A stretch of 64,000 bases of DNA, taken from Fragilaria crotonensis. Its lineage: Eukaryota > Bacillariophyta > Fragilariophyceae > Fragilariales > Fragilariaceae. Made by a program: the position numbers and the translations under genes. This document shows positions 31,782 through 62,783 of the stretch, one piece after another. The notes below the pieces were generated by a model that saw only the letters and a program-made list of their open reading frames with translations, was not told where the DNA came from and ran no database searches. Each line of letters starts with the position of its first letter. Positions within the stretch are counted from its first letter, which is position 1. Where the stretch lies: contig JAKSYS010000146.1 of assembly GCA_022925895.1 (NCBI GenBank), forward strand, positions 41,903-105,902, written 5' to 3'.

Positions 31782-32163
31782 GCTGACACGGAAAGGGAAC
31801 GGGATGCTAGATCCTACTTCGAATAAAGTTGGCACCTGGTGGAAGAGTGAGTATGAGAGTATGATAGATCGTAAAGTGTGAAGTGTGAAGTCACAGCAGT
31901 GGAAGAGCAAATGTGCAATACTTTCTATACCGGTAGTAGTTGAGTACTCCTACTCCAGTAATAGTCTTTTTTCTTCATCATCATCTGATTCTGGATTTTT
32001 CCCTATCATATATACAGTATATATCATATACTCATACATGTGAAAAAGGAACTCCAATGACACGTATGGACGAAGGACGGCCAATGTACTGTACAGAGTT
32101 TCCCCTCCATATGAATGGTAATTCGCACTGAGTTACGAGTACTGTATACGCCTCCGAGTCCGG
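31782..32163. other. Upstream region of the Cys-rich gene up to the element border
   Basis: Promoter side of the 31781 gene, followed by AT-rich DNA with an ATATA palindrome near 32010-32030. No gene seen. The composite mobile region begins at 32164. Confidence 0.5.
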
Positions 32164-32186
32164 GAAGCGATTAGAATGCAAGGAAA

Positions 32187-32194
32187 TGACGTCA
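32187..32194. promoter_or_regulatory. TGACGTCA palindrome in element end (A, left)
   Basis: Perfect CRE-type bZIP site inside the conserved terminal 33 bp. TGACGT-type sites are known CO2/cAMP-responsive elements in diatom promoters; use here is inference. Confidence 0.5.
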
Positions 32195-32532
32195 ACATTT
32201 TTTGTCACAGAACTTGAGTTTTTGGAATCTAGAGATTTTCTCACTTCACCCGGAGCAATTTTTCAAGAAGCTCGTATTCAAAACTTCATCATAGATACAG
32301 AACATAAATCTACCCGACATTTGTTCGAACGGACATAAAAATCTTCCTGCATTGATGTGATTATAACGTTGAAAATCTCAACTTCTTCCGTCCCAAAACA
32401 CCACAATTTTACCACTTTGTGGTCAACGCCATGGTTTGTTTTGTTTTCATTGCTATAATCACTGATGATGCTTGCTTTGTGTTCCTTTTATCTGCATTTG
32501 CTGACTCATTCCATCTCTTCATTGTTGTGTAG

Positions 32533-32700
32533 GAGCCAGAAGCGGTGTTCGTATCAGAAATTTCCGAGCCAAAGCCTGTGATGGACGTTTTTAGTGATGC
32601 CGTTACAACTTACTCTTTTCTGCCCTTGGACTTCAGCCATTGTTTGCCCATCCTCTACAGCATGAAGCAGCAATGTAACTTGTTTGTTATTCTTGAGATG
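32533..32700 (+). pseudogene. Mirrored fragment of the element's own transposase 5' region
   Basis: After an acceptor-like TGTGTAG the plus strand reads EPEAVFVSEISEPKPVMDVF. The transposase on the minus strand starts, after its own acceptor CTTTAG at 41013, with DPDELVVSPTKPVDAFLTAF. The intron-like DNA before both (CCATGGTTTGTTTTG and CCATGGTTCGTTTG) also matches. A stop (TAA) follows near 32710. The left arm of element A is therefore a worn inverted copy of the gene start, not just of a non-coding terminus. Confidence 0.6.
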
Positions 32701-32924
32701 CTGTGTTAACTTGTTGATTGTTTTGTTGCATTCTTGATCAGCATTATGATGCTATAGAATATAGGTCTACTTCTACTCGAGAAAAACAACACACAACGTG
32801 AACACCCTGCCTGGTTATGACAAAACAACCATGACGTTCTCTACACGATTTTTTTATTGCGTTTCATTGCTTGCTTGTTTGCCTTTGGTAGTTGTCATTT
32901 GTCTGCAATGACAAATTAGGACGG

Positions 32925-33712
32925 TGACATAAGTAGTTGAAAATTGTACATTACTAATGCTGCTCATCTAAGTGACGGCGACATTGGTGGTAGAAAATAA
33001 TCCACTAATGCCGCTCTAGTAGCATTCGTACCTGGTACCTGGCATGCATACTCCCCCGCTCTTCTACGGGACGGCGGCAATAGTGGTACAGAATTATCCA
33101 CTATATTGCCGCTCTTCTACGGGACGACGGCATTAGTCTAGTGGAGAAAATTATCCACTAATGTCGATCTTCTAAGGGACATCGACATTAGTGGTAGAAA
33201 AATATCCACTAATGTCGATCTTCTACGGGACATCGACATTAGTGGTAGAAAAATATCCACTAATGTCGATCTTCTACGGGACATCGACATTAGTGGTAGA
33301 AAATTATCCACTAATGTCGATCTTCTACGGGACATCGACATTAGTGGTAGAAAATTATCCACTAATGTTGATCTTCTACGGGACATCGACATTAGTGGTA
33401 GAAAATTATCCACTAATGTTGATCTTCTACAAGTACGAGACATCGACATTAGTGGTAGAAAATTATCCACTAATGTCGATCTTCTACAAGTACGGGACAT
33501 CGACATAAGTGGTAGAAAATTATCCACTGATGTCGATCTTCTACGGGACATCGACATTAGTGGTAGAAAATTATCCGCTAATGTCGATCTTCTACGGGAC
33601 ATCGACATTAGTGGTAGAAAATTATCCACTGATGTCGATCTTCTTCGGGACATCGACATTAGTGGTAGAAAATTATCCACTGATGTCGATCTTCTACGGG
33701 ACAGCGACATTA
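32925..33712. repeat. Hairpin minisatellite array 1 (51-bp units)
   Basis: About 11 regular units of 51 bp (57 bp in two units with an extra AAGTAC) from 33170, preceded by three more divergent units. Core: CGACATTAGTGG, an 11-base spacer TAGAAAATTAT, then CCACTAATGTCG, a 12-bp-stem hairpin; linker ATCTTCTACGGGACAT. The first divergent units carry GCGG/CCGC versions. Both strands stay open as ORFs because 51 and 57 are multiples of three; coding is not supported. The array is interrupted by element C and resumes at 34678. Confidence 0.92.
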
Positions 33713-34677
33713 GGGAGATCCGGGTAGAGTCGTGTTTCCACTAAGTTTCCCTTTTCATAACGAAAATTTTAGTGGATGCGAAACTCAATATAAAATCGGA
33801 ACTTAGAGATCCGGCTTGACTTTATACAAGGGAAATTTCTACTTTATTCTACGACAAGGATTCCTACTGAACACCAAGTAGGATTCCGCTTTGAGTTCCT
33901 TTTTCATCGTATGCTGTTTGTGCTTTTCTCGCCAGATTTGGATTGCTGAGCACTGTCGTTTCTATCATTGGATTCGCCGTATCAATATTAGTCTATTATC
34001 TAGAAGGTAGTGAGTCGTTTAGCCGCTACATCGCCGGAATTGCAATCGTCGTCATGGCAAATGAGTTGTGATATTGATTTTTACTTGAGTGCGCACAAAA
34101 GAACGCGCGAAATTTAGAATGAATTCGAGGACAAGGATTCCTCCGACACGTCAAATAAGATTCCGTACAAGGGTTCATTGATGTCAAAAACCTGTTGGTG
34201 CTTCGTTCTCGACCGATTTAGATCTCTGAGCACTGTCGTTTCTTTAGGTGCATCCGCCATGTCAATATTAGTCTACGTGTGATTGTTGGTCCGAGGTGTA
34301 GACTCATAAGCATCGGTATGGCAATCGTCGTCATGGCGAGAGAGAGATGACAACATTTTCCTGCAGAGACCGACTAATTCGAACGCTTTTGTTGACAGCT
34401 TTGTTTTCAAGTACTAAGTTCTGCTTTGGTCTACAGAAATATGGTGCAACGTGGAACTACGAATGCAATAAATTGAACACGTGTAACGGAATCTTGAATA
34501 ACAGAAACTTAGTGGAAAGAAGCGGCTCCTAATTTCCACTAAAGGCCCAAAAATCGACCTTTAGCGGAAATTGCGAAACAAGAGTCACTAATTTGTTTCC
34601 GTTATTTTGACTCATAACCGGTTCTGAGTCCAAATAACAGAAACTTTAGTGGAAACACGACTCTACCCGGATCTCCC
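33713..34677. mobile_element. 965-bp inverted-repeat element C inserted in array 1
   Basis: Ends GGGAGATCCGGGTAGAGTCG and its exact inverse, extending into GTTTCCACTAA. The insertion splits the array motif CGACATTAGTGG: the left flank is CGACATTA and the right flank TATTAGTGG, so ATTA is duplicated (4 bp, possibly 5). It has no transposase, so it is non-autonomous. A subterminal hairpin (GACTCATAACCGGTTCTGAGTC) lies at about 34604-34630. Inside, 33853-34070 and 34130-34347 are diverged direct repeats. The first encodes FGLLSTVVSIIGFAVSILVY and GIAIVVMANEL, two hydrophobic segments that look like a captured gene piece; the second copy has a stop. Confidence 0.85.
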
Positions 34678-34770
34678 TATTAGTGGTAGAAAATTATCCA
34701 CTAATGTCGATCTTCTACGGGACATCGACATTAGTGGTAGAAAATTATCCACTAATGCCGCTCTAGTAGC
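34678..34770. repeat. Hairpin array 1, right remainder
   Basis: One and a half further units of the 51-bp hairpin repeat, ending in the CCGCTCTAGTAGCATT variant also seen at 33000-33030 and 41420-41450, followed by CAGGTACCTGG. Confidence 0.88.
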
Positions 34771-34822
34771 ATTTGTACCAGGTACCTGGTGTGCATACGG
34801 ATCCGATTAGAATGCAAGGAAA

Positions 34823-34830
34823 TGACGTCA
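34823..34830. promoter_or_regulatory. TGACGTCA palindrome in element end (B, left)
   Basis: Same site and surroundings as at 32187, followed by CATTTTCGTCACAG. Confidence 0.5.
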
Positions 34831-35070
34831 ACATTTTCGTCACAGTAATGAAGCTGCGTGGGACCATCATGTAGAGCACCAGTGACACGCGTAGGCCGAA
34901 GAAAACATGGAATCTTTGTTTCTCATTTCTTTCATGGGTTTTCCAGTACGCCTGCCCACCCTTTGTTCACGCCAGCCAGTTAATTTTTGAAATTTGTTAT
35001 GCGTGCAACAGCATACTTGATACGACACTCCGTTGCGTTGTATGATAACCGAATGATTTGAATTGGTAAC

Positions 35071-35500
35071 TCGTACAACGCAGCGACATTAGTGTTTTTT
35101 TTTCTACCAGTAATGTCGACGCTTGTACAACGCGGCGACATTGGTGGATTTTTTTCTACCACTAATGTCGACGCTTGTACAGCACGGCAACATTAGTGGA
35201 TTTTTTTCTACCACTAATGTCGACGCTTGTACAGCACGGCGACATCGACATTAGTGTGATTTTTTTCTACCAGTAATGTCAACGCTGGTACAACAAGGCG
35301 ACATTAGTGTGATTTTTTTCTACCACTAATGTCGACGCTTGTACAACACATCGACATTGGTGGATTTTTTTCTACCAGTAATGTCGACGCTTGTACAACG
35401 CGGCGACATTCGTGGATTTTTTTCTACCAGTAATGTCGACGCTTGTACAACAAGGCGACATTAGTGGATTTTTTTCTACCAGTAATGTCGTCACATGTAC
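35071..35500. repeat. Hairpin minisatellite array 2 (left arm)
   Basis: Eight units of 51-59 bp. Core CGACATTAGTGG, spacer ATTTTTTTCTA, CCACTAATGTCG; linker ACGCTTGTACAACGCGG. It runs opposite to array 3. The inner border, CACATGTACACGATG, is mirrored at the inner border of array 3. Confidence 0.92.
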
Positions 35501-35654
35501 ACGATGCGCTGCGCAAAAACACAGCGGCACTTACGAGAATTCAGTGCGTCAGTTGCGCAAACGTCATCAAAGAACATGTTTTTCAGAAATGCACTTCAGA
35601 AATTCCTGTGTATTATTTGCCATCTCATTGTTAGCGGACGTTGAAGGATCAACG

Positions 35655-35912
35655 CGGAAACCTTTGTGAGGCGTAGTACAGTTGTGAAAAAGGACACCGC
35701 TAGCCGTGACATTGTTCATGGTAGCAGCAGATCCGAGATCAACGGGGAAACGATCATGAGGCGTAGTACCGTTGGGAACAACGACAGCGAGGAAACCTTT
35801 GTGAGGCGTAGTACAGTTGTGAAAAAGGACACCGCTAGCCGTGACATTGTTCATGGTAGCAGCAGATCCGAGATCAACGGGGAAACGATCATGAGGCGTA
35901 GTACCGTTGGGA
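35655..35912. repeat. 135-bp tandem repeat (nearly two copies) open on both strands
   Basis: GAAACCTTTGTGAGGCGTAG starts at 35656 and again at 35791, period 135 bp (45 codons). Inside each unit GAGGCGTAGTACMGTTG occurs twice. The plus strand gives RRSTVVKKDTASRDIVHGSS, the minus strand NGTTPHDRFPVDLGSAATMN. Either could be a 5' exon of a neighbouring gene; neither has a clear start. Confidence 0.8.
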
Positions 35913-35936
35913 AGACCGACAATTCCGCTATCTTTG

Positions 35937-37010
35937 ATGTTGACAGAGCTGAAAAGCGGCTTCCAACACGTGTACAAATCAAGGAACACTAGTTCGAGTT
36001 GCAGAGTCCAGGTGGCGTACAACTTGTCAGGACAGTACGGCTATCCTCGAAGCAAGCAGGCAATGAAACGCGATAAAGCAAAGAAGAAGAAGATAGATTG
36101 CCTGCAGACCATTTCTTCATCACCACGGCATGCACTGTGCAAAGCCTTCTTCTTGAGCAGTAGACCTATCTTCTATAGTGGAACACTGGACACAACTGCA
36201 ATCCTTCCAGGTAATGTGGGTAATTCAATTGTTCTAACGGTCGCTGAAAATCTGCAAGTTGTTGACACTATTTCTGGAGCCCGTTTGGAATCGGCATGTG
36301 GAGACACTGTATTCACATTGATTCCAAGACAGGCTGCCATCAACAAGTTGACGCATGTCCACAAAACAATCATCTCGCTATACGCACTAGAGGACGCAAA
36401 AACGAAAGCTGAAGTTCGAGGAAAGAAAAGAGTTACAATTGCAGAAACGGATGGAAGGTACACCACTGTCGGTCTAAAACCTAACAGAGGTACACCCGGT
36501 ATTATAGACTCTTGGCCAAAGAAGTTAAGCGTGTGCGCCAAGAAAAATATTTGCAACTTAATGGCTAGATGCGAAGAAGTTGCAAAAGGGTACATACCCT
36601 CAAATGCAATGCGAGGTCTGCGAATTGCACAACTCCTTGTCGATTGGCCAGAGATGGAGGGAAGTGCATCGCAGCCTATCTGGAGAAGTCTTGCCTGTGG
36701 AAAGAACTACTACTTGAATTCACATTTGGACGATGATTTCTTTTATTCGTTGACTACCATTGCTTCCGAATTTGGACTTCAAGAAGATGTTGATAAGTAC
36801 AGATTGGATGCAAAAGTCTGCAACTACTTCACATTTGCAGAACAAGGGATAGCTGTCGCGCTGAGACCGGGAGATATGCTTATTTTCAATCCAAGATATC
36901 ACCACTGCTTGTCATCACGCACGGACTCTTACCAATGTAAGGATGTTTTTTGTCTATCCTTATATCTAAAAACTGCAGTTGTAGGAGGAAATGACAACTC
37001 ACAGCCCTGA
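35937..37010 (+). CDS. 2OG-Fe(II) dioxygenase-like protein carried between inverted hairpin arrays (357 aa)
   Basis: Single open frame; starts at 35937 (MLTELKSGFQ) or 36063 (MKRDKAKKKKIDCLQ), undecided. The C-terminal third has the pattern of a double-stranded beta-helix oxygenase. A putative HxD lies in YYLNSHLDDDFFYSL (His codon 36723). Next comes AVALRPGDMLIFNPRYHHCL, with the distal His about 59 residues after the first, then a strand CKDVFCLSLYLKTAVVG. The 2-oxoglutarate-binding basic residue may be the Arg in SSRTDS or a later Lys. The N-terminal half has no recognised domain. I recall multicopy diatom proteins with this tail. Substrate unknown. Its place between mirrored arrays inside a transposon suggests cargo or an accessory factor. 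By analogy with TET/JBP genes carried by some fungal transposons, action on DNA is imaginable, but this is speculation. Confidence 0.6.
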   Translation: MLTELKSGFQHVYKSRNTSSSCRVQVAYNLSGQYGYPRSKQAMKRDKAKKKKIDCLQTISSSPRHALCKAFFLSSRPIFYSGTLDTTAILPGNVGNSIVLTVAENLQVVDTISGARLESACGDTVFTLIPRQAAINKLTHVHKTIISLYALEDAKTKAEVRGKKRVTIAETDGRYTTVGLKPNRGTPGIIDSWPKKLSVCAKKNICNLMARCEEVAKGYIPSNAMRGLRIAQLLVDWPEMEGSASQPIWRSLACGKNYYLNSHLDDDFFYSLTTIASEFGLQEDVDKYRLDAKVCNYFTFAEQGIAVALRPGDMLIFNPRYHHCLSSRTDSYQCKDVFCLSLYLKTAVVGGNDNSQP

Positions 37011-37089
37011 ATAACAACGTTGTTTGTTGCAACCTGAATAATCTGCAAATTATCGAATTGGTAGCATAAAATCCACTCATGTGGCCATC

Positions 37090-37785
37090 GTGTACATGTG
37101 CCAGCGTCGACATTACTGGTAGGAAAAAATCACACTAATGTCGATGTCGCCGTGCTGTACAAGCGTCGACATTAGTGGTAGAAAAAAATCCACTAATGTT
37201 GCCGTGCTGTACAAGCGTCGACATTAGTGGTAGAAAAAAATCCACCAATGTCGATGTGTTGTACAAGCGTCGACATTAGTGGTAGAAAAAAATCACACTA
37301 ATGTCGCCTTGTTGTACCAGCGTCGACATTACTGGTAGAAAAAAATCCACTCATGTCGCCGTGCTGTACCAGCGTCGACATTACTGGTAGAAAAAAATCC
37401 TCTCATGTCGCCGTGCTGTACAGCAAGAGTCGACATTACTGGTAGAAAAAAATCCACTAATGTCGCCGTGTGGTACAAGCGTCGACATTACTGGTAGGAA
37501 AAAATCACACTAATGTCGATGTCGCCGTGCTGTACAAGCGTCGACATTAGTGGTAGAAAAAAATCCACTAATGTTGCCGTGCTGTACAAGCGTCGACATT
37601 AGTGGTAGGAAAAAATCCACCAATGTCGCCTTGTTGTACAAGCGTCGACATTAGTGGTAGAAAAAAATCCACGAATGTCGCCGTCGTGTACAAGCGTCGA
37701 CATTACTGGTAGAAAAAAAAACACTAATGTCGCTGTGTTGTACAAGCGTCGACATTACTGGTAGAAAAAAATACACTAATCCTGC
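37090..37785. repeat. Hairpin minisatellite array 3 (right arm, inverted to array 2)
   Basis: Thirteen units of 48-59 bp: CGACATTAGTGG, spacer TAGAAAAAAAT, CCACTAATGTCG; linker CCGTGCTGTACAAGCGT. Some units have CTGG in place of GTGG, weakening the stem by one pair. A higher-order copy is visible: the block from 37103 recurs at about 37479. Confidence 0.92.
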
Positions 37786-37889
37786 CATCATTGATAACAA
37801 TACCCGATTTTGTGCAACTACCGTAAATAAGTCCTAAGTGTAACGCCGGAAATACGATGCGTACCATACATCTATGACGCAACATCGCC

Positions 37890-40800
37890 TCAACCACACC
37901 AAGCAGAAACTTTTGATTTCTTCACTTTGCCTACCGGGCATGACGACACCACTCCCCCAATGGGTGGTGGTTTCTCGGATGCAAGGTTTGCCTTTTCGAC
38001 AGAAATAAGCTTGTCCAGAGCTTCCTCGACCGCTAGTCCACGCTCTCGGCAGTTTTTTGATGCTGCAACAATACTCACTAACTCCTTTACTCTTGGCATG
38101 AACATGTCGTATGGATTGTAGAACAAGGAATCTGGGAACTCGTCCTGGTGGTGAACACGTGATCCAAAGTCAATACAATCACTTTCCACTTTGGATTCAA
38201 TGAGCCAGGCATCATCGTCATCATCGTCCTGGTAATCGTCACCACTGCCACCATCATAACAGTCATCACACAATTCATGCTGCAAATGAACTTCTTGGGA
38301 CATGGACATGGGAACATTTGTTGAACTGTGCTTAAGGGCAACCATCACCTCATCCCGTGAGTAGTTTATTACCCGGTTGATTACGGAGTCTTTTTTGAAA
38401 AGTAATGCTAGGCAGCGTTCTGTTGCATTCCGAAATGTATCGTTCGAATTCTGTCCAAATTGATACACGCGACGAAATGATGAAACTGTGTGGTCATAAG
38501 TCTTTTCTGAGAAGGTAGGTCCTTGGCACTCATTTCGCCTAAGTGAGTCCAACTCTCTTTTTATGTCGGCCTCAGTGGATGAGCAATCATGGACGTTCTT
38601 CATTGCAAAGTACAGATACGCTTTCCACCAACGTACTGAAATGTCGTGGTGAGTGATCATGGACTTGGCGGCATAGTACATCTTTACATGTACCAAATGC
38701 TGGCAGACCATGCCATTGCATTCAAAGTATTTGCAGTCACATAGGAGACAGCCTCGATCCTGGAAAGAATGCAAAGAAACGGTGTACACTCTATGAAAAC
38801 GGGGTACCAATGAATGCACCTCCCGTTCAACAGACCTGACAACAAGCCACGTGTCTTTGCTTGTTCTCCAAGATGCATAGTTCTCGCACTCCCGAATAGC
38901 AAATTTCAACATGAATTCTGCTGGGAGAGTAATGTCGTTCACAGTCAGGGAGGTACTCCATGTTGCTCTTCCAAGCAACGCGGTAGCTAGATGACGACGA
39001 TAGAGGTCGAACTTGTTACAATCCATATCCAGCTGAATTTTGGCCGATTTGTCAATTGCATGCTGTGGAAGTACACGGGAAGGACCAGATTTGATGGCGT
39101 GATTGGTCCCTTCATGACCAGAGTTCGTGGTGGTCTCAAAGTGCCTAATGCCCTTCCGCAAGTAGAAACAATAACTTTGCTCATGTGGGATGATACAACC
39201 ACGGATGAAGTCCAACAGTTTCTCTCCACCATCATCGCCGAAAATGGCCTTCACAACATCTGACTTCAAATAAGTAATTAATAGGGCCTTACTTCTGTAG
39301 TCACAGTGATCATGTTAGGTACAGTCAACGACATACATGTGGAGACCAAAATAGTGTGACTTACACTTCATATTCTTCTTTCGAGTCTACCCCGCGGCGC
39401 ATCCAGCTATATAGCCAGTTTTGAATTACTCTCACCTGACTTCTTGCAGAATCTCTCTTTGCGAAAGCCTAAACCTCTACATTCTCGTCTCCAGCCTTGA
39501 TGAACAAGATGCCATCCACAGCGACTACGAACTGCGTTGACAAAATATGTCGCAATTGCGTAGTCGACCTGCGCCATTTCTTGGGAGTCGCCATCTGTCA
39601 TGACAAGCTTAACCAACCGCAATGTTTGAGTACCTAAGAGCACAGGAAGTGCTTCTTGGAATAACCAACGGAACAACCAAGATCTTTCATTTGGGGCAAA
39701 GCATCTGACCACTACCATCACATTTCCGTCCGAATCCTTGACCGAAAGTGTAAGCAAGGGTCTGCTTTCATTGTTTGTCTCATGTGTCCCATCAATGCAA
39801 ACGACTTCTGGAAAGGCTTGAAAGAGACGTCTACCATCTGGCAACACCCAGCAACATGCAATAAGAATGTCCTGGTCGTCCCTTGCTCCAACTGCGTGCC
39901 TACTTCTCTGGGCATATTCCTTGAAATCGGCTGTCTCTGTGACCTCCAGAGGTACAGACTTATGGGTTGGGGCGCTTTCCATTGTGGTCACCATGGAAAG
40001 GCTGGTTAGATTAACCCCATCATCAACAGGATTGCCTTCAGTTCGTGCCGCCTTGCGATTTTGACCACGAATTTCTTTCGTATTCCCGTTATGATACAGA
40101 CAGACAAATGATGCGCCAATTTTTTGGAGATAATTCAGCATACTGTCTGACGGTGACATGTCAGAGGGTAGTGCAGCACCCTGAGGTGACGAATCCATTA
40201 AATCTTGTGCCATTCGGGAGAAACCTTGAACATAAGCCATCTGTCCGCGTGTAAACAGCTCACCAGTACTGCTTCGGGTGAACAATGCAGCTTGTGAGGG
40301 CAGGATATTGGCAGCAGCCATTGCAGCTGCATTTTCCAGGGTTGGGGCGTCCAGAAAACGTTTGCGATTGGTTATCTCGTTACGAGACATGGGTGGGTGA
40401 CCCCTATGCTGGTTGTCTCCAACCCCACAGACTAGATGAAAGCTGTACTGGTCCAGTCGGATGACAATTTTGGCAGAACAAGTGCACCTTGTATCGCGTT
40501 GCGTGCAATTACGTCGTCGCAATGCCTTTCCTGAGTTATTGGAACCACGAGAGTTTTTTGTCACCAATATAGGTTGTCACACGATAAGCATCGGCTTGGG
40601 CACCATCCAAACGCTGATGATACTTTCGGCCGTTACTGCACAACAAAACACGTTGGTCCTTGCAGGCTTTAGCACTACTTCCATTAGATATCAGAGCACA
40701 GTTACCATGAGATCTGGCGGCTTGGCATAAATCAGTGATAAGTTTTTGGCCTCCAGAATCCTTGCCGAATCCTCCCACAGTAGGGTACAGCAATGGACTG

Positions 40801-41012
40801 AAGCGCACAATAAACTTCATGGGGCCTTTGTATACGGAACTAGTAGTGTACTCGAACAGGTCGTGCTTCGTTTCCGATGAGGCACAGAAATCTTCGGAAG
40901 GTAAGCAAAGGTGTCCATTGAATGGGAGCGACCCAATCCACGTTGCAGTCTTGAAAGCAGTTAAAAAAGCATCCACAGGCTTTGTAGGGGAAACTACTAA
41001 CTCGTCTGGATC
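37890..41012 (-). CDS. Mutator-like (MULE) transposase with SWIM finger, two frame breaks
   Basis: Catalyses cut-and-paste transposition. The frame starts after an acceptor (CTTTAG) at 41012; an upstream exon is expected. Pieces: 41012-40536, 40567-39407 and 39269-37890. Catalytic acids: Asp in VVCIDGTHETN, Asp in LVMTDGDSQEMAQ, Glu in TTNSGHEGTNHAIKS. SWIM finger: LLCDCKYFECNGMVCQHLVH. The acidic C-terminal part ends in VGKVKKSKVSAWCG. Between the second and third pieces QNWLYSWMRRGVDSKEEYEV joins SKALLITYLKSDVV across a roughly 70-bp GTAAGT..CTACAG intron, keeping frame. The break near 40545 is either an A6 indel or a 52-bp intron (GTGTGA..CTCAG). The break near 39450 is a real frameshift by my reading. 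Probably inactive, or mis-assembled at two bases. Confidence 0.82.
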
Positions 41013-41343
41013 CTAAAGGCAGGAAAACGAATGGAGAGAGCATCGTGTGAGCATCGAAGAGTATTTTGGGAAAGCAACACGGATTGAAGCAACAAAAACA
41101 AACGAACCATGGTGTGGACCATAAAAGGTTGAACCTGTGGTAAATTGTGGCGGAAATGTTGTGGGTATTCAATGTTATAATCACATTAACAGACGAATAT
41201 TTTTATTACTGTTCAAACAAATGTCGGGCAGATTTATGTTCCTTATCCATGACGAAGTTTTGACTAAGGTTGCTTGAAAAATGGCTCCTGTTGAAGCGAA
41301 AAAATGAAGATTCCAAAAAGTCAAATTCTGCGACAAAAAATGT

Positions 41344-41351
41344 TGACGTCA
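41344..41351. promoter_or_regulatory. TGACGTCA palindrome in element end (A, right)
   Basis: Mirror copy of the 32187 site in the right end of element A. Confidence 0.5.
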
Positions 41352-41376
41352 TTTCCTTGCATTCTAATCGCTTCCG

Positions 41377-41636
41377 GTCTTCTACCGGACGGCGGCATAA
41401 GTGGAGAAAATTATCCACTAATGCCGCTCTACCGGTAGTAGCATTCGTACCAGGTACTTGTACCTCGTACCTGGTATGCATACTCCCACACTCCCACAGA
41501 TCGCGGTATGGTATACATGTATGCACAAATTGGATGCAAATTGAATTTCAAACAAACATTTAAAACCACCCACATGGTGAACTGTCATAAACGATCTCTA
41601 CTATCGGTAGTAGTATAGGTCTACGTATTTGAATTG
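41377..41636. other. Segment between the right ends of elements A and B
   Basis: Contains one hairpin unit (GCGGCATAAGTGG...CCACTAATGCCGC, 41388-41425) of the array family and CAGGTACTTGTACC palindromes. No gene. Confidence 0.6.
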
Positions 41637-41783
41637 CTGCTGTCCTGACAACAGGCTGGGCCGGCGTATTGGAAACCCATGAAAGAAATGAGAAACAAAG
41701 ATTCCGTGCTTTCTGCGGCCTACACGTGTCACGGGTGGTCTACATGACTGTCCCACGCAGCTTTATTACTGTGACGTAAATGT

Positions 41784-41791
41784 TGACGTCA
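41784..41791. promoter_or_regulatory. TGACGTCA palindrome in element end (B, right)
   Basis: Mirror copy in the right end of element B, with an extra half-type site TGACGTAA at 41772-41779. It lies about 500 bp upstream of the nuclease-helicase start codon. Confidence 0.5.
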
Positions 41792-41815
41792 TTTCCTTGC
41801 ATTCTAATCGGATCC

Positions 41816-52890: not shown

Positions 52891-54556
52891 GTAGAACTCC
52901 AACACTCCAACCATCATCAAAAGAAAGCTGTTTTGTGTGAAATTGCATTGTCTTCCCGCAAAGATTCTGCCACTCAGCATGTAAGTATTGGTAGAGTGTG
53001 CAGAGTGCACTAATTGACAAGATAGCGTTTAGAATGCAGACCAAATCTGAGATCTGGAAGCACTAGTAGCTAGTATGGGGATGTTTACCAGCCACACACT
53101 GTTGATGATGGTACCAATCAACAGCACAAAGCTTAGTCAAAGTAGGAGCCAATTATTGCAGCATCTGGGCAGAGAGAGAAGCAGCAGAGAGACATGTAGT
53201 TGATGGTATTGGTAGCTAGAACTATTGTTGATCTCCTATCATAATACCTTTGCTCTCACCTCACCATTGAGTAGCACTCGGGTGAAACAGTACTATGATA
53301 AAAGCCGTGTACTGCACGTACTGTTCTACTCAATACTGTACTGTAGAGCTGTATTATACCATGTGGTATTATATGGTATTATACGGTATAATACAGCTTC
53401 CCATTTCAGAAATGGTATAATACCCATCGATAGGTAGGTCCTCCCATCACAGATCCATAGATATCATACCGCTGTGGCCTCATGCAAAATTTACCTCATC
53501 CTTGGGCTCTTGGGCGCTCAAAAGATGCATCATGCAACGAACTAACTCGTCGTCATGACCTGTGCTTGATTATCAAATCCAAGCAAAAAAATGCCCGGGA
53601 AGTCGAAAGCATTGTAGCAAACATCGCAATTGATTCCCTGGTTGACGCATGCTGGCATTTATCGGTGCAATGGTTCTTACAAACACTGGCAGAAGTATAT
53701 TATTCAATTTCCAAGACATCGAACCTTAGATTTTGAAATGCAATCACCCATCAGCAGTTGAAGTGCACAAGTTTGCATGGGCTTGGCCAATTTCAAATGG
53801 GTATACATAGTAAAAAATTTGCAAATGGGTGATTGGTGACACATCCATTGTCCAGCCATCTCAATATATTTTTTTGCATTTCCAAGTCCAGGAGTGCCAT
53901 CCTCAGTTTTTGCAACTCAACTTGAGTTCAGCATCAGTGCTGCTAGCTTGTAAGTTGTACGCAAGCTTGAAACACTTCATCCATCTTCAGCAAACATGTA
54001 TGGTACTGAAGAAAAGTTTCAAGGGTGCCATCAACACCATCTATTCAATAGCAACAAACTCTGATTGTCAAGCCACTGGTGCTTCCTTGTCAGCCCATCT
54101 TGTGTGTGCTCCTAAGAATCCAACATACAGTTGCAGAGTCACAACAAAAAATGCTAGCACATTGCAGAATTCTGTGTCCTGAGGGGGTGGAAAGTGCTTG
54201 GTGATTTGTTCCCAATAGCTATTACGACAGCAATCATTGCTGGGTACTGGCTACTGGCTACTGGCACACATAGTCCTGCAGCTTGAACTGCACTCGCATA
54301 CTGTACTACTGAATACTGTACAGTTGTATCTATACATTAGTGATTTGTACTCCGTATGGACTATGGACTAATTCCCAGAATAGTAGAGTTCTAGTACTTT
54401 ACTCTAGTACATTCTACATTCTCACACGCCCACTGCTTTTTTGCCAGATAAGGGCATGTCTTCTTTTAGTTGACAGTAGTAGTACATGCCACGTACTCAT
54501 AGTGTACTACACTTCATACTGTCAAATCCTGACTGCCAGTTTGCGAGTCCATAATT
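52891..54556. other. Intergenic, no recognised gene
   Basis: Contains an inverted repeat GCTGTATTATACC...GGTATAATACAGC (53348-53397) and frames of up to 117 codons without motifs (53482-53736, 53829-54182). Nothing else recognised. Confidence 0.5.
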
Positions 54557-54856
54557 GTTTCTGTTTCTGTTTCTGTTTCTGTTTCTGTTTCTGTTTCTGT
54601 TTCTGTTTCTGTTTCTGTTTCTGTTTCTGTTTCTGTTTCTGTTTCTGTTTCTGTTTCTGTTTCTGTTTCTGTTTCTGTTTCTGTTTCTGTTTCTGTTTCT
54701 GTTTCTGTTTCTGTTTCTGTTTCTGTTTCTGTTTCTGTTTCTGTTTCTGTTTCTGTTTCTGTTTCTGTTTCTGTTTCTGTTTCTGTTTCTGTTTCTGTTT
54801 CTGTTTCTGTTTCTGTTTCTGTTTCTGTTTCTGTTTCTGTTTCTGTTTCTGTTTCT
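54557..54856. repeat. Hexanucleotide (GTTTCT)50
   Basis: 300 bp of uninterrupted GTTTCT, exactly 50 units as assembled, running straight into the TTC tract. Confidence 0.96.
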
Positions 54857-55480
54857 TCTTCTTCTTCTTCTTCTTCTTCTTCTTCTTCTTCTTCTTCTTC
54901 TTCTTCTTCTTCTTCTTCTTCTTCTTCTTCTTCTTCTTCTTCTTCTTCTTCTTCTTCTTCTTCTTCTTCTTCTTCTTCTTCTTCTTCTTCTTCTTCTTCT
55001 TCTTCTTCTTCTTCTTCTTCTTCTTCTTCTTCTTCTTCTTCTTCTTCTTCTTCTTCTTCTTCTTCTTCTTCTTCTTCTTCTTCTTCTTCTTCTTCTTCTT
55101 CTTCTTCTTCTTCTTCTTCTTCTTCTTCTTCTTCTTCTTCTTCTTCTTCTTCTTCTTCTTCTTCTTCTTCTTCTTCTTCTCTTCTTCTTCTTCTGTCTTC
55201 TTCTTCTTCTTCTTCTTCTTCTTCTTCTTCTTCTTCTTCTTCTTCTTCTTCTTCTTCTTCTTCTTCTTCTTCTTCTTCTTCTTCTTCTTCTTCTTCTTCT
55301 TCTTCTCTTCTTCTTCTTCTTCTTCTTCTTCTTCTTCTCTTCTTCTTCTTCTTCTTCTTCTTCTTCTCTTCTTCTTCTTCTTCTTCTTCTTCTTCTTCTT
55401 CTTCTTCTCTCTCTTCTCTTCTTCTTCTCTTCTTCTTCTTCTTCTCTTCTCTTCTTCTTCTTCTTCTTCTTCTTCTTTTC
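54857..55480. repeat. TTC trinucleotide tract, about 620 bp
   Basis: Nearly pure TTC with CTCTTC interruptions after 55180 and a single G at 55195. The strand is all-pyrimidine over 338 bp and again over 285 bp, so it could form triplex (H-DNA) as GAA/TTC repeats do. Long ORFs over it (FFFF.., LLLL.., EEEE..) are artefacts. Confidence 0.96.
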
Positions 55481-57453: not shown

Positions 57454-57808
57454 TCCATCCATCGATCCATCCATCGATCCATCCATCGATCCATCCATCG
57501 ATCCATCCATCGATCCATCCATCGATCCATCCATCGATCCATCCATCGATCCATCCATCGATCCATCCATCGATCCATCCATCGATCCATCCATCGATCC
57601 ATCCATCGATCCATCCATCGATCCATCCATCGATCCATCCATCGATCCATCCATCGATCCATCCATCGATCCATCCATCGATCCATCGATTGATCCATCC
57701 ATCGATCCATCCATCGATCCATCCATCGATCCATCCATCGATCCATCCATCGATCCATCCATCGATCCATCCATCGATCCATCCATCGATCCGTCCATCG
57801 ATCCATCC
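57454..57808. repeat. 12-bp minisatellite TCCATCCATCGA, about 30 copies
   Basis: 355 bp of TCCATCCATCGA with one irregular unit (ATCCATCGATTGATCC) near 57680-57695 and a C to G change near 57793. All three minus frames are open (DGWI, MDGS, DRWM repeats) because 12 is a multiple of three; coding is not supported. Confidence 0.96.
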
Positions 57809-60407: not shown

Positions 60408-62783
60408 ATGCCACCAAAGAAGAAGCCAAGAAGAGCAGCAGTTGAGAAGAGCTTTTTTCCAGGAGACCCAAGGTTCTCTATTCCTCTCTCGGCACATGCA
60501 GAAGATGTGCAGGCGCTGCAGGAGAATAAGTATTTGAGTACAAACCTGTTGGACTACTTGATCCAAAGAGGAGCTCCATCTCCCACACCACCGTTGCTTC
60601 CCTCTCAGGATGAAGATATATCCGCACCACCATTGTACATTGGTGGATTAGCAACAACTTTCTTCATTGAGAAGGCAAATGAACTGGTGCTCGAATCAAC
60701 GTCGCGAAAGAGCCTTGAAATCATTCGAACGAGCCTGAAGAGCTACAAAGCCACCACCCTTGCCAGGGGATCAAAGCTTGTTGTGCCAATGGTTCATAAG
60801 TCACATTTCTTTGTCCTTGTGATTGAGTTGACTGGAAAGCATGGTTGTGAATTCTACAAGGGTATTGAGTGCTACGACTCGATGGATTTTTGCAGTGCAC
60901 CTACGACAAGGACACGAGGTGCAGCAAGTCATATTCGTGCATTTCTTGCTGAATTTCACAAATTCGCGCTTTACTTTGTCTGTGATGATAAGTTTAAGAT
61001 AGGTCGCCCTCAAACTCAGGTCAAGCACTGCCCATGTCCGACTCAAGGTAATGTGATTGATTGTGGCCTCTTTTCGATTGGTGTGGTTCTGCACATCATC
61101 GACAGTATTCCAATCACCAATGAAACTTTCAAACAAGAACATATGACAAAACTACGTTCTGATTTGGCAACTCACCTTGCCGCTGTTGAAAACTTATCCA
61201 AGTATCCACTTCCTTGCAGTGTCATCAGAGGATGCTTTCCCGCATTGCTCACCATGGACGACACCGATGATGGCAGCATTGTGGTTCTTGGAGTATCAAA
61301 AAATGCAGAGGACTCAGCAAATGCCGAGTCCTCAACTACTGAAGTTGAGGTCATCATGGACGGAAAAGTATCAACAAATGATGTGTCTGCTAATGTTGCA
61401 GAGTCATCCGCAGCCTTCTCATGTAACGTCATTGAGGGTATAGTGGATGGTAATGTAGCAACTAAAGAGTCAGCAGCAAAGGATGCAACACAGTCGCCTG
61501 GCATGCTTAAGCTTCTCATGGAAATGATCTCACCGGCAAGCCGTGCCATGAAGAAGTGTGGAGGCAAGATATTGAGATTTGAGGAAGGAGAGGAGAAGAA
61601 CGATAAGAACGATACTGAAAAGAAGAAGGTTGCTGGCGGTAGCGATATTGTACTAGTGCAAGCCCAGAAGACAGACTCCCAGGGCATGCCAAGTGAAGGT
61701 CAGGAACAACAAGGATGCCAACCACTACAAGCACCTAACAAAATGAACACCGACGCAAAAGAGCATGTTGAAGATGTTGTATTTTCCAAACTAGTGAAGG
61801 AACTCAAAATTGAGTCCTTCAAAAGCCTTGCTGATGTGACTCCAGTCATGGAGCAATACCAGAAGCAGTCGGGATGTCAGGTTGCGATTCGTCAAGTGAA
61901 GGACAAGTTCCGGGTCTACAAATGCGCTGAGCACGTCAACTGTGTGTTCAAGGTTCATGTTGGGAGGAGACGAATAGATGGCAAGTATGTCATCAAGAAG
62001 CAATCTGTGTTGCGTCACACAACGGTCCGTTGTCCACTCAAAGCAAGTGATGGGCGACAGTGGAAACAGCGGCGCGCTGAAAAAGTTCAGGAATACATTG
62101 AAGAGGCTGCAAAAACGAAGGTTGGAATACCAACTGCCCGAGATGTGATGAAAACCGGATCTCTGAAAGGAGATACTGTGTCTTACTTGGCGCATATGAA
62201 ATGTGCTGACCATGTTGGCACTCTTTACATTGTTGCTTCTGTATTGTCAGGAGCTAACGAGGTATATCCGATTGGCTTCCTGCTGTCTTCTGGAAATGAA
62301 GACCGAGAAACATGGACACACTTCCTGACAAAGCTGAAACAGGCTTGCCCTTTTTTGTGTGAAAGGGATGCGACAACTGAGCTGAATCCTTTCATCTTTA
62401 TCTCAGATCGTGACAAGGGACTTCAACAAGCCCTGGATGACGTGTTCCCAGACAACACAAACGTGTTGTGTGTCAAGCACATTGAAGCCAATGTGAAGCA
62501 GAGGTTTGCACAATGTGCGGCATATGTATTTCGGATTGCAACATTCTCTACTCGGCAGGAGAAGTTCTTCATTGATCAAGTACGGAAGCTAAGACCAGCC
62601 GCTGCAACCTACATAGAAAGCATTGATGGATTGTGGAAGAATACATCTTGGCTGGATGAGAACATGAGACTTCCGCCTCGGTATGGAATCATTACATCAA
62701 ACACAAGCGAATCTGCCAATAGCATGTTCCTTACTCGCAGCATGCCATGGCTCAAGCAATCGAGAAGATTATTGACATCATGA
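60408..62783 (+). CDS. Ulp1-like protease / Mutator transposase fusion (791 aa to first stop)
   Basis: ATG at 60408 (MPPKKKPRRAAVEK, basic, nuclear signal-like). Residues about 80-260 resemble a Ulp1/C48 cysteine protease: His in HKSHFFVLVIEL, Asp in IECYDSMDF, Gln and Cys in PTQGNVIDCGLFSIG. An acidic linker follows, then a zinc-binding type segment (YKCAEHVNCVFKVHVGRRR). The transposase core reads VGTLYIVASVLSGANEVYPI, ISDRDKGLQQALDD (second Asp), VLCVKHIEANVKQRF and ITSNTSESANSMF (third acid). The first catalytic Asp usually precedes HMK...GTLYI, but here the sequence is SYLAHMKCADH: the Asp and about 100 upstream residues seem deleted. The frame breaks at 62750 (next entry). Ulp1 domains associated with Mutator-like elements are known from plants. 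Confidence 0.85.
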   Translation: MPPKKKPRRAAVEKSFFPGDPRFSIPLSAHAEDVQALQENKYLSTNLLDYLIQRGAPSPTPPLLPSQDEDISAPPLYIGGLATTFFIEKANELVLESTSRKSLEIIRTSLKSYKATTLARGSKLVVPMVHKSHFFVLVIELTGKHGCEFYKGIECYDSMDFCSAPTTRTRGAASHIRAFLAEFHKFALYFVCDDKFKIGRPQTQVKHCPCPTQGNVIDCGLFSIGVVLHIIDSIPITNETFKQEHMTKLRSDLATHLAAVENLSKYPLPCSVIRGCFPALLTMDDTDDGSIVVLGVSKNAEDSANAESSTTEVEVIMDGKVSTNDVSANVAESSAAFSCNVIEGIVDGNVATKESAAKDATQSPGMLKLLMEMISPASRAMKKCGGKILRFEEGEEKNDKNDTEKKKVAGGSDIVLVQAQKTDSQGMPSEGQEQQGCQPLQAPNKMNTDAKEHVEDVVFSKLVKELKIESFKSLADVTPVMEQYQKQSGCQVAIRQVKDKFRVYKCAEHVNCVFKVHVGRRRIDGKYVIKKQSVLRHTTVRCPLKASDGRQWKQRRAEKVQEYIEEAAKTKVGIPTARDVMKTGSLKGDTVSYLAHMKCADHVGTLYIVASVLSGANEVYPIGFLLSSGNEDRETWTHFLTKLKQACPFLCERDATTELNPFIFISDRDKGLQQALDDVFPDNTNVLCVKHIEANVKQRFAQCAAYVFRIATFSTRQEKFFIDQVRKLRPAAATYIESIDGLWKNTSWLDENMRLPPRYGIITSNTSESANSMFLTRSMPWLKQSRRLLTS

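Follow-up and report, generated by a model that had tools for sequence, protein, structure and literature searches.

The window analysed here, a 64,000-nt stretch of the genome of the diatom Fragilaria crotonensis (contig JAKSYS010000146.1, positions 41,903 to 105,902 of the forward strand, part of the contig that we refer to as C54), contains a transposable element of the Mutator-like (MULE) type, E1, that carries two genes. From one terminal inverted repeat (TIR) to the other it consists of a hairpin array, a gene that we call the companion, a second hairpin array that mirrors the first, and a transposase gene on the opposite strand (Table 1). What a sequence-only reading of the window had noticed as an oxygenase-like gene between two mirrored arrays is the interior of this element. 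The transposase gene matches PF10551 (the MULE domain, E 5.5e-12) and PF21056 (E 1.3e-12). The first of its two open reading frames (ORFs) contains the MULE domain; the second, which is without a Pfam match, carries by eye a SWIM-like CxCx..CxH motif, and the gap between them looks, again by eye, like an intron (GTGAG...ACAG). Both transposase ORFs are open in E1, and the companion gene is frame-shifted relative to the copy on contig C388.

Table 1. Features of E1 and of the element E2 that surrounds it (window coordinates)
Feature	Position	Strand	Remarks
E1, MULE enclosing the mirrored arrays and companion gene	34799..41375	+	borders from ends of other copies
Left TIR of E1	34799..34846	+	about 48 nt by eye, GGATCCGATTAGAATGC...
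Array 2	35073..35501	-	about 8 hairpin units, 52-nt period
N-terminal region of companion, with two repeats of 135 nt (45 residues)	35650..35992	+	frame differs from that of the C-terminal domain in the window copy
Companion ORF, oxygenase-like C-terminal domain	35937..37010	+	H263xD265...H323, R328
Array 3	37100..37780	+	about 12-13 hairpin units, 52-nt period
MULE transposase gene	37893..40567	-	ORF 40567-39410 and ORF 39269-37893
Right TIR of E1	41328..41375	-	terminates ...GCTTCC
E2, non-autonomous MULE, orientation opposite to E1	32163..41815	-	E2 sequence is 32163-34798 plus 41376-41815
Array 1 (of E2)	32929..34770	+	51-nt period, TTAT variant, broken by a 976-nt insertion

The mirrored arrays 2 and 3 are confirmed. 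Both are built of one unit, CGACATTAGTGG-N11-CCACTAATGTCG, in opposite orientation, as the sequence-only reading had proposed: 24 of the 25 longest inverted pairs listed join the two arrays, over up to 249 nt at 85-96% complementarity, and the inner borders can be seen to mirror each other. The unit, with up to three mismatches, matches the window 28 times over arrays 1 to 3 (13 times in array 1), as compared with no match in 100 shuffles. Each unit contains an inverted repeat whose loop is asymmetric, so that its orientation can be read, and is '<' in the left array and '>' in the right. The eight units claimed for array 2 agree with the 8.1 copies measured at 35073-35501 with a tandem period of 52; for array 3 the array itself stands, and the claimed count of 13 becomes 12.0 copies by period (37144-37780). 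The first 320 nt of each array fold far more strongly than shuffles (z = -11.8 for array 2 and -11.9 for array 3). A hairpin had been claimed for every unit, and the unit is indeed of the hairpin type, but its stem is imperfect in many cases; when all copies are read, pair 9 is a C-C mismatch in 19 of 44 distinct stems.

The borders of E1 were read from other copies, whose homology starts at window 34795-34799 and in most cases stops at 41375, where C198 and C376 are truncated. Terminal inverted repeats, which some MULEs lack, are present, with GGATCC at the companion-side terminus and GGAAGC at the transposase-side terminus, together with GATTAGAATGC..., and across 17 end pairs (14 short stretches plus C241, E1 and E2) the companion side reads GGATCCGATTAG and the transposase side GGAAGCGATTAG. 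The exceptions are a variant transposase-side end in C57, the locus on C661, where only the GGAAGC end was found, and the truncated transposase sides of C198 and C376. We did not find a target-site duplication of 8-11 bp in the 17 end pairs, which gave one 8-nt near-match (C270) where random pairing gives a mean of 0.24.

These borders bear on the interpretation first put on the locus, that of a foldback transposon with an oxygenase gene as passenger and with the tandem hairpin arrays as its inverted ends. The mirroring of the arrays fits such an element, as does a cassette exchange at C361 that is described below, but the ends read in the 17 pairs lie elsewhere, which in E1 is 274 nt beyond array 2 on one side and 3.6 kb beyond array 3 on the other, so that the arrays are internal. 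Moreover, homology crosses the arrays into TIR and transposase; a single match in C169, for example, spans the gene, array 3 and the transposase (window 36427-38600, 94%). Given this homology across the arrays as far as the MULE ends, we reject the foldback interpretation as very improbable.

E1 is nested in E2, which explains the third array and the additional inverted motifs at 32163 and 41815. Position 41815 was at one point a candidate for the right end of E1 and was rejected, as most copies terminate at 41375; it belongs to the outer element. E2 carries array 1, is without a match to companion or transposase, and matches the first 143 nt of E1 at its corresponding end (93%); E2-like end pairs also occur in C698, C248, C108 and C8. 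An empty site was searched for the E2 insertion only, and none was found. We also note that the 976-nt insertion in array 1 (33713-34690) has inverted ends of its own (GGGAGATCCGGGTAGAGTCGTG...), is without a long ORF, and is a separate element.

Arrays in related elements

We searched the genome assembly (62.1 Mb, 881 contigs), for which repeat counts are lower bounds. Units of the type seen in E1 (type A) form mirrored arrays in C54, C241, C270, C785, C786 and, twice, C57, and type A' units do so in C388, C860 and C586. One array of C786 is degenerate, visible by alignment and in a fuzzy scan and absent in a stricter one, and in C270 and C786 the fuzzy scan assigned '<' to part of the units on the right, which exact matches and the stricter scan read as '>'. 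The unit of type B is a different, 73-nt sequence and is mirrored in all seven loci examined, five of them wholly polarised, with one opposite half-site in the 3' flank of C105 and three in the 5' flank of C130. Single arrays exist too, so that the expectation of mirrored pairs holds for part of the loci; nevertheless, as such pairs recur across loci and unit types, C361 among them, the pairing around a gene is not a coincidence. The set contains duplicates, in that C198 and C376 have common flanks, as do C428 and C768, and the array loci C114, C274, C428 and C34 are known from matches alone, without a full reading. The two copies on C57 (L007 and L008) are near-identical mirror images about 17 kb apart and reflect either misassembly or a palindrome of large size.

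Units of types A, A' and B all hold more stems than shuffles. A perfect 9-bp stem is present in nearly every unit of the six B arrays tested (for example 17 in 17.9 units, with a shuffle mean of 0.13), and perfect stems are fewer in A arrays (3 in 8.2, 4 in 12.2 and 8 in 12.9 units). Covariation within the stem is weak. Among the 166 of 173 units kept, all picked by likeness to palindromic consensus sequences, the paired fraction and the double changes observed are reached in none of 500 shuffles, and extra pair types are no more numerous than chance would have it (280 of 500 shuffles). At pair 3 of the stem, A-T has become G-C in C388 and C860 with pairing kept, a double change that probably goes back to one event.

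Predicted folding is strong in the A and A' arrays and in the 3' arrays of type B, and the two genes converge with their 3' ends on array 3. It is conceivable, therefore, that the arrays act in RNA, either by giving structure to the 5' and 3' regions of companion transcripts or as a double-stranded RNA trigger formed between the convergent genes. We hold this to be quite improbable, however, since three B 5' arrays fold much like their shuffles (z over 320 nt of -1.7 in C105, -0.5 in C304 and -0.4 in C77) and long double-stranded RNA should be harmful to the element.

The locus on C361 shows how arrays and companion can travel. Its ends and its transposase are of type A (the second ORF is 95% identical, with two stops), and its interior holds two A units followed by B-type arrays that flank the remnant of a B-type companion; the right array is 87-89% identical to other B loci, and the junctions of the exchange lie at the arrays. 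Arrays and companion have here been exchanged jointly and independently of transposase and ends, which shows that they can behave as one module. C241, C785 (its far end was not located) and C586 have kept both arrays but, on the stretches examined, match neither the transposase nor the C-terminal domain of the companion; of the companion a remnant of the repeat region is left. Taken together with C361, these gene-less derivatives tie the arrays more to the companion gene than to the transposase.

The same loci speak to the possibility that the transposase, or a partner that binds the TIRs, uses the arrays as subterminal binding sites, which would aid assembly of the transposition complex. Transposase sites in a subterminal tandem arrangement are known from other superfamilies, the left array of E1 begins about 270 nt inside the TIR, and arrays are retained by copies that have lost their genes. 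Nevertheless, C361 combines the same transposase type and ends with the other array type, array 3 stands 3.6 kb from the right end, C198 and C376 have nearly lost their arrays (one degenerate unit is left in each) and E2-type copies manage with one array only; on balance we regard a role as transposase sites as decidedly unlikely.

The companion gene and its partners

In the C388 copy of the companion a single open frame links N-terminal 45-residue repeats to the C-terminal domain. The sequence-only description of one intact gene in the window is thus right for the ORF, which is open, and fails for the repeats upstream (35666-35992), which are out of frame with it by comparison with C388. A tandem repeat is computed at 35656-35921 within this N-terminal region, and across companions the periods obtained with TRF are in most cases divisible by three (135, 132, 138 and 93) but also 131 (C305), 134 (C270) and 137 (C121). 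Within the C-terminal domain, H65, D67, H125 and R130 (numbering of alignment A2) are invariant among one member from each of five subfamilies. The ratio of nonsynonymous to synonymous substitution rates (dN/dS) was computed for open-frame copies only (many others contain stops). Of 28 pairs, 11 are saturated; the other 17, for which dS is finite, have ratios of 0.03-0.22, and the five pairs with dS below 0.5 give 0.03, 0.05, 0.05, 0.20 and 0.22. These ratios indicate that the C-terminal domain is under purifying selection.

A profile of the C-terminal domain gives six PDB matches at E up to 10, all sub-threshold (E 0.64-1.7) and all aligned at the distal histidine of the domain; three are named WelO5, which we take to be an Fe/2-oxoglutarate enzyme, and three Oxidoreductase. 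A match to the TET/JBP family was absent: ten members searched at E up to 10 returned only PF08195 (TRI9), in three of the ten and with a best value of 0.019, which is at the level of chance. Searches with tblastn of viral_contigs and genome_contigs, neither of which covers a eukaryote collection, returned no relatives of the companion.

The 112 companion matches cluster into 54 loci, whose neighbours we counted using all transposase rows (112 + 100) and all helicase rows. A MULE transposase match lies within 8 kb of the companion in 31 of the 54, and in each case the companion is located 3' of the transposase; 28 of these pairs are convergent and three (C130, C93 and C63) are flipped. Of the other 23 loci, 17 adjoin a helicase gene, always convergent and 108-398 nt away; the six in which we found no partner are C108, C197, C287, C305, C739 and the second locus on C411. 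The helicase partner has Helicase_C and DEAD domains and a zinc-knuckle-like C-terminus (for example L030 on C592, L027 on C411 and L114 on C783), a recombinase-like motif noted in it by eye had no Pfam match, and 15 of the 32 helicase loci are without a companion within 4 kb. That the companion stands beside a MULE transposase or a helicase, on the partner's 3' side in 48 of 48 partnered loci, is, within the literature that we searched, a new fact for diatom mobile elements. The sequence-only reading was accordingly right that an oxygenase-like gene lies between the arrays, but it is a recurrent second gene and not cargo captured once. Companions of type C are carried by MULEs whose transposases are distant (32-33% identity), and in a tree of 14 companion proteins they group with the helicase-borne type D (support 99/98), apart from MULE-borne A and B and from the helicase-borne, long-branched E. 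The grouping of C with D suggests that the gene has switched partner.

The three flipped pairs raise the possibility that the arrays are recombination arms, by which the companion inverts in place, as a promoter switch, or by which cassettes are swapped between elements. All three are flipped and yet remain 3' of the transposase, C130 (the only flipped locus with its arrays read) has normal internal geometry, and the cassette exchanged in C361 has its junctions at the arrays. Against this, 28 of the 31 pairs share one orientation, C63 is a fragment of 55 residues, and the direct arrays of type C, described below, are unable to mediate inversion. Recombination as the function of the arrays therefore seems to us improbable.

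A proposed role for the arrays

To judge from their substitutions, these elements and their arrays alike have probably been targets of host methylation. CpG transitions are 3.5-7.3 fold more frequent than non-CpG transitions in pairwise comparisons of the coding parts, and number 15/368 as compared with 1/736 within 92 E1-type 35-nt units, and 5/84 as compared with 1/168 in E2-type units; the 35-nt unit count omits position 9 and units with more than eight mismatches, and replaces a 23.6-fold value that a spacer variant had inflated. Such an excess is expected if the elements are methylated. The observed-to-expected ratio of CpG is 1.16-1.95 in A, A' and B arrays, 0.71-0.82 in the companion and transposase ORFs and 1.05-1.06 in two host genes, and the arrays remain CpG-rich through recent homogenisation or selection.

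VANC, a MULE-encoded protein, is described as binding short motifs in fast-diverging noncoding tandem repeats and causing loss of DNA methylation (PMC5735166, PMC10398659). We propose, with a confidence somewhat short of even, that the companion likewise attaches to the arrays of its own module and opposes methylation by the host. The protein, perhaps with its N-terminal repeats, would recognise the palindromic units of the module that encodes it and would accumulate on the two noncoding gaps, where the oxygenase-like domain would strip a silencing mark, methylcytosine being the obvious candidate; it would thus act as VANC does in the VANDAL MULEs of Arabidopsis, but with an enzyme as the effector. 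The mirrored layout would also allow recombination to flip the companion gene in place, maybe as a by-product. We draw the analogy to VANC from the joint change of array and companion type in C361, the repeat region of the protein, and the oxygenase-like domain as a possible eraser. A more elaborate version, in which a self-addressed epigenetic eraser with its own hairpin landing arrays forms a cassette that can be swapped and flipped in place, its gene common to at least two kinds of diatom transposon, we consider doubtful as a whole.

Several observations weigh against this proposal. In type C (four loci) arrays with a different unit sequence lie on both sides of the companion but are direct, and the three arrays tested have no 9-bp stem; hairpins and mirroring, which occur together in A, A' and B, are missing together in C. 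No array pair was found within the 1.5 kb fetched around types D (seven loci, with C389 too short to test) and E (four loci), where C271 has a lone 36-nt inverted match that is not an array. Thus neither mirroring nor hairpins are obligatory. Arrays occur singly in C169, C8, C108, C248, C661 and C698, as well as in array 1 of the window, and the C361-type recombinant is a single case. For the companion itself, Pfam, PHROG and NCBIfam give no assignment, a full-length profile has no significant PDB match (its top two, at E 1 and 1.1, are a coat protein and a coiled-coil protein, neither of them related), and with a sub-threshold likeness to Fe/2-oxoglutarate enzymes the term oxygenase is an argument from motifs. 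As for methylation, the companion repeat region has a CpG ratio of 1.23 and a single C array one of 0.98, and the idea that the arrays are shielded from methylation, being CpG-rich, was rejected on account of the transition excess at array CpGs.

The single arrays, the hairpin-less arrays of type C and the absence of pairs in D and E would fit functionless minisatellites, that is, palindromic units that grow by slippage and are homogenised in noncoding gaps tolerant of repeats. The window also contains tandem repeats of other kinds, and array length is highly variable. That said, three unit sequences (A, A' and B) exceed shuffles in stems and all are mirrored, the arrays persist in gene-less derivatives, and the double change at pair 3 in C388 and C860 keeps pairing, so that we think an origin without function unlikely, if still worth serious consideration. 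Should the companion indeed act on its arrays, anti-silencing of the VANC kind would exist in transposons outside plants and with a candidate enzyme; protein and DNA target would form a visible and exchangeable pair, in which removal of the mark and change of target become testable; and the picture from fungi of oxygenase genes that move between transposons would reach diatoms.

Apart from these elements, the window contains a second MULE domain match (62238-62489, in an 801-residue frame close to the right edge) and long simple arrays at 54556-55477 and 57454-57808 (TGTTTC, TTC and TCCATCCATCGA). Elsewhere in the genome there are strong matches to silicon transporters, which are typical of diatoms (best E 4e-193), with fused units in a single open frame, three in C97 and two in C771.

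Relation to known systems

Like maize MuDR, with mudrA and mudrB, E1 has two convergent genes. In MuDR, mudrB encodes a protein different from the companion, and MuDR is not known to have hairpin arrays. Neither a diatom MULE with a companion gene of this kind nor one with mirrored hairpin arrays turned up in the literature searched, which mostly excludes subscription journals and Repbase. The closest by host are the MULE-Diatoms, given in the group 37 table of Dupeyron et al. 2019 (PMC6446971) as having one ORF, TIRs of 123-124 bp and 'No TSD'. E1 resembles them in its diatom host, the SWIM motif of its transposase (here by eye) and the lack of a target-site duplication, and differs in having two genes, TIRs of about 48 nt, and arrays. 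Repetitive arms associated with a MULE-related transposase are described for the MULE/Foldback elements Tm1, whose two ends also bear different short motifs, and FARE (PMC3169594), and a minisatellite before the 3' TIR for Rehavkus (PMC6446971). As described there, however, the repeats of these elements lie in terminal arms or at one end, whereas the arrays of E1 are internal and bracket a second gene.

Fungal DNA transposons of several unrelated lineages carry a TET/JBP oxygenase gene, proposed to defeat silencing by methylation (PMC12730594). The abstract of that study names no MuDR lineage, and the terms 'tandem repeat', 'Mutator' and 'MULE' are absent from its text; the likeness to the diatom companion lies in transposons that carry an oxygenase or, here, an oxygenase-like gene, with no TET/JBP match of the companion in the search given above. 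In arrangement, E1 can be likened to VANDAL21/Hi and VANDAL6, in which a MULE with one or more extra genes has family-specific noncoding tandem repeats that diverge quickly but retain their role (PMC5735166, PMC10398659). In the diatom, however, the units are hairpins mirrored around the companion, and the companion is oxygenase-like. Both VANC, which works in trans across the copies of its own family, and the companion nevertheless combine conserved domains with variable regions associated with the repeats (PMC5735166, PMC10398659).

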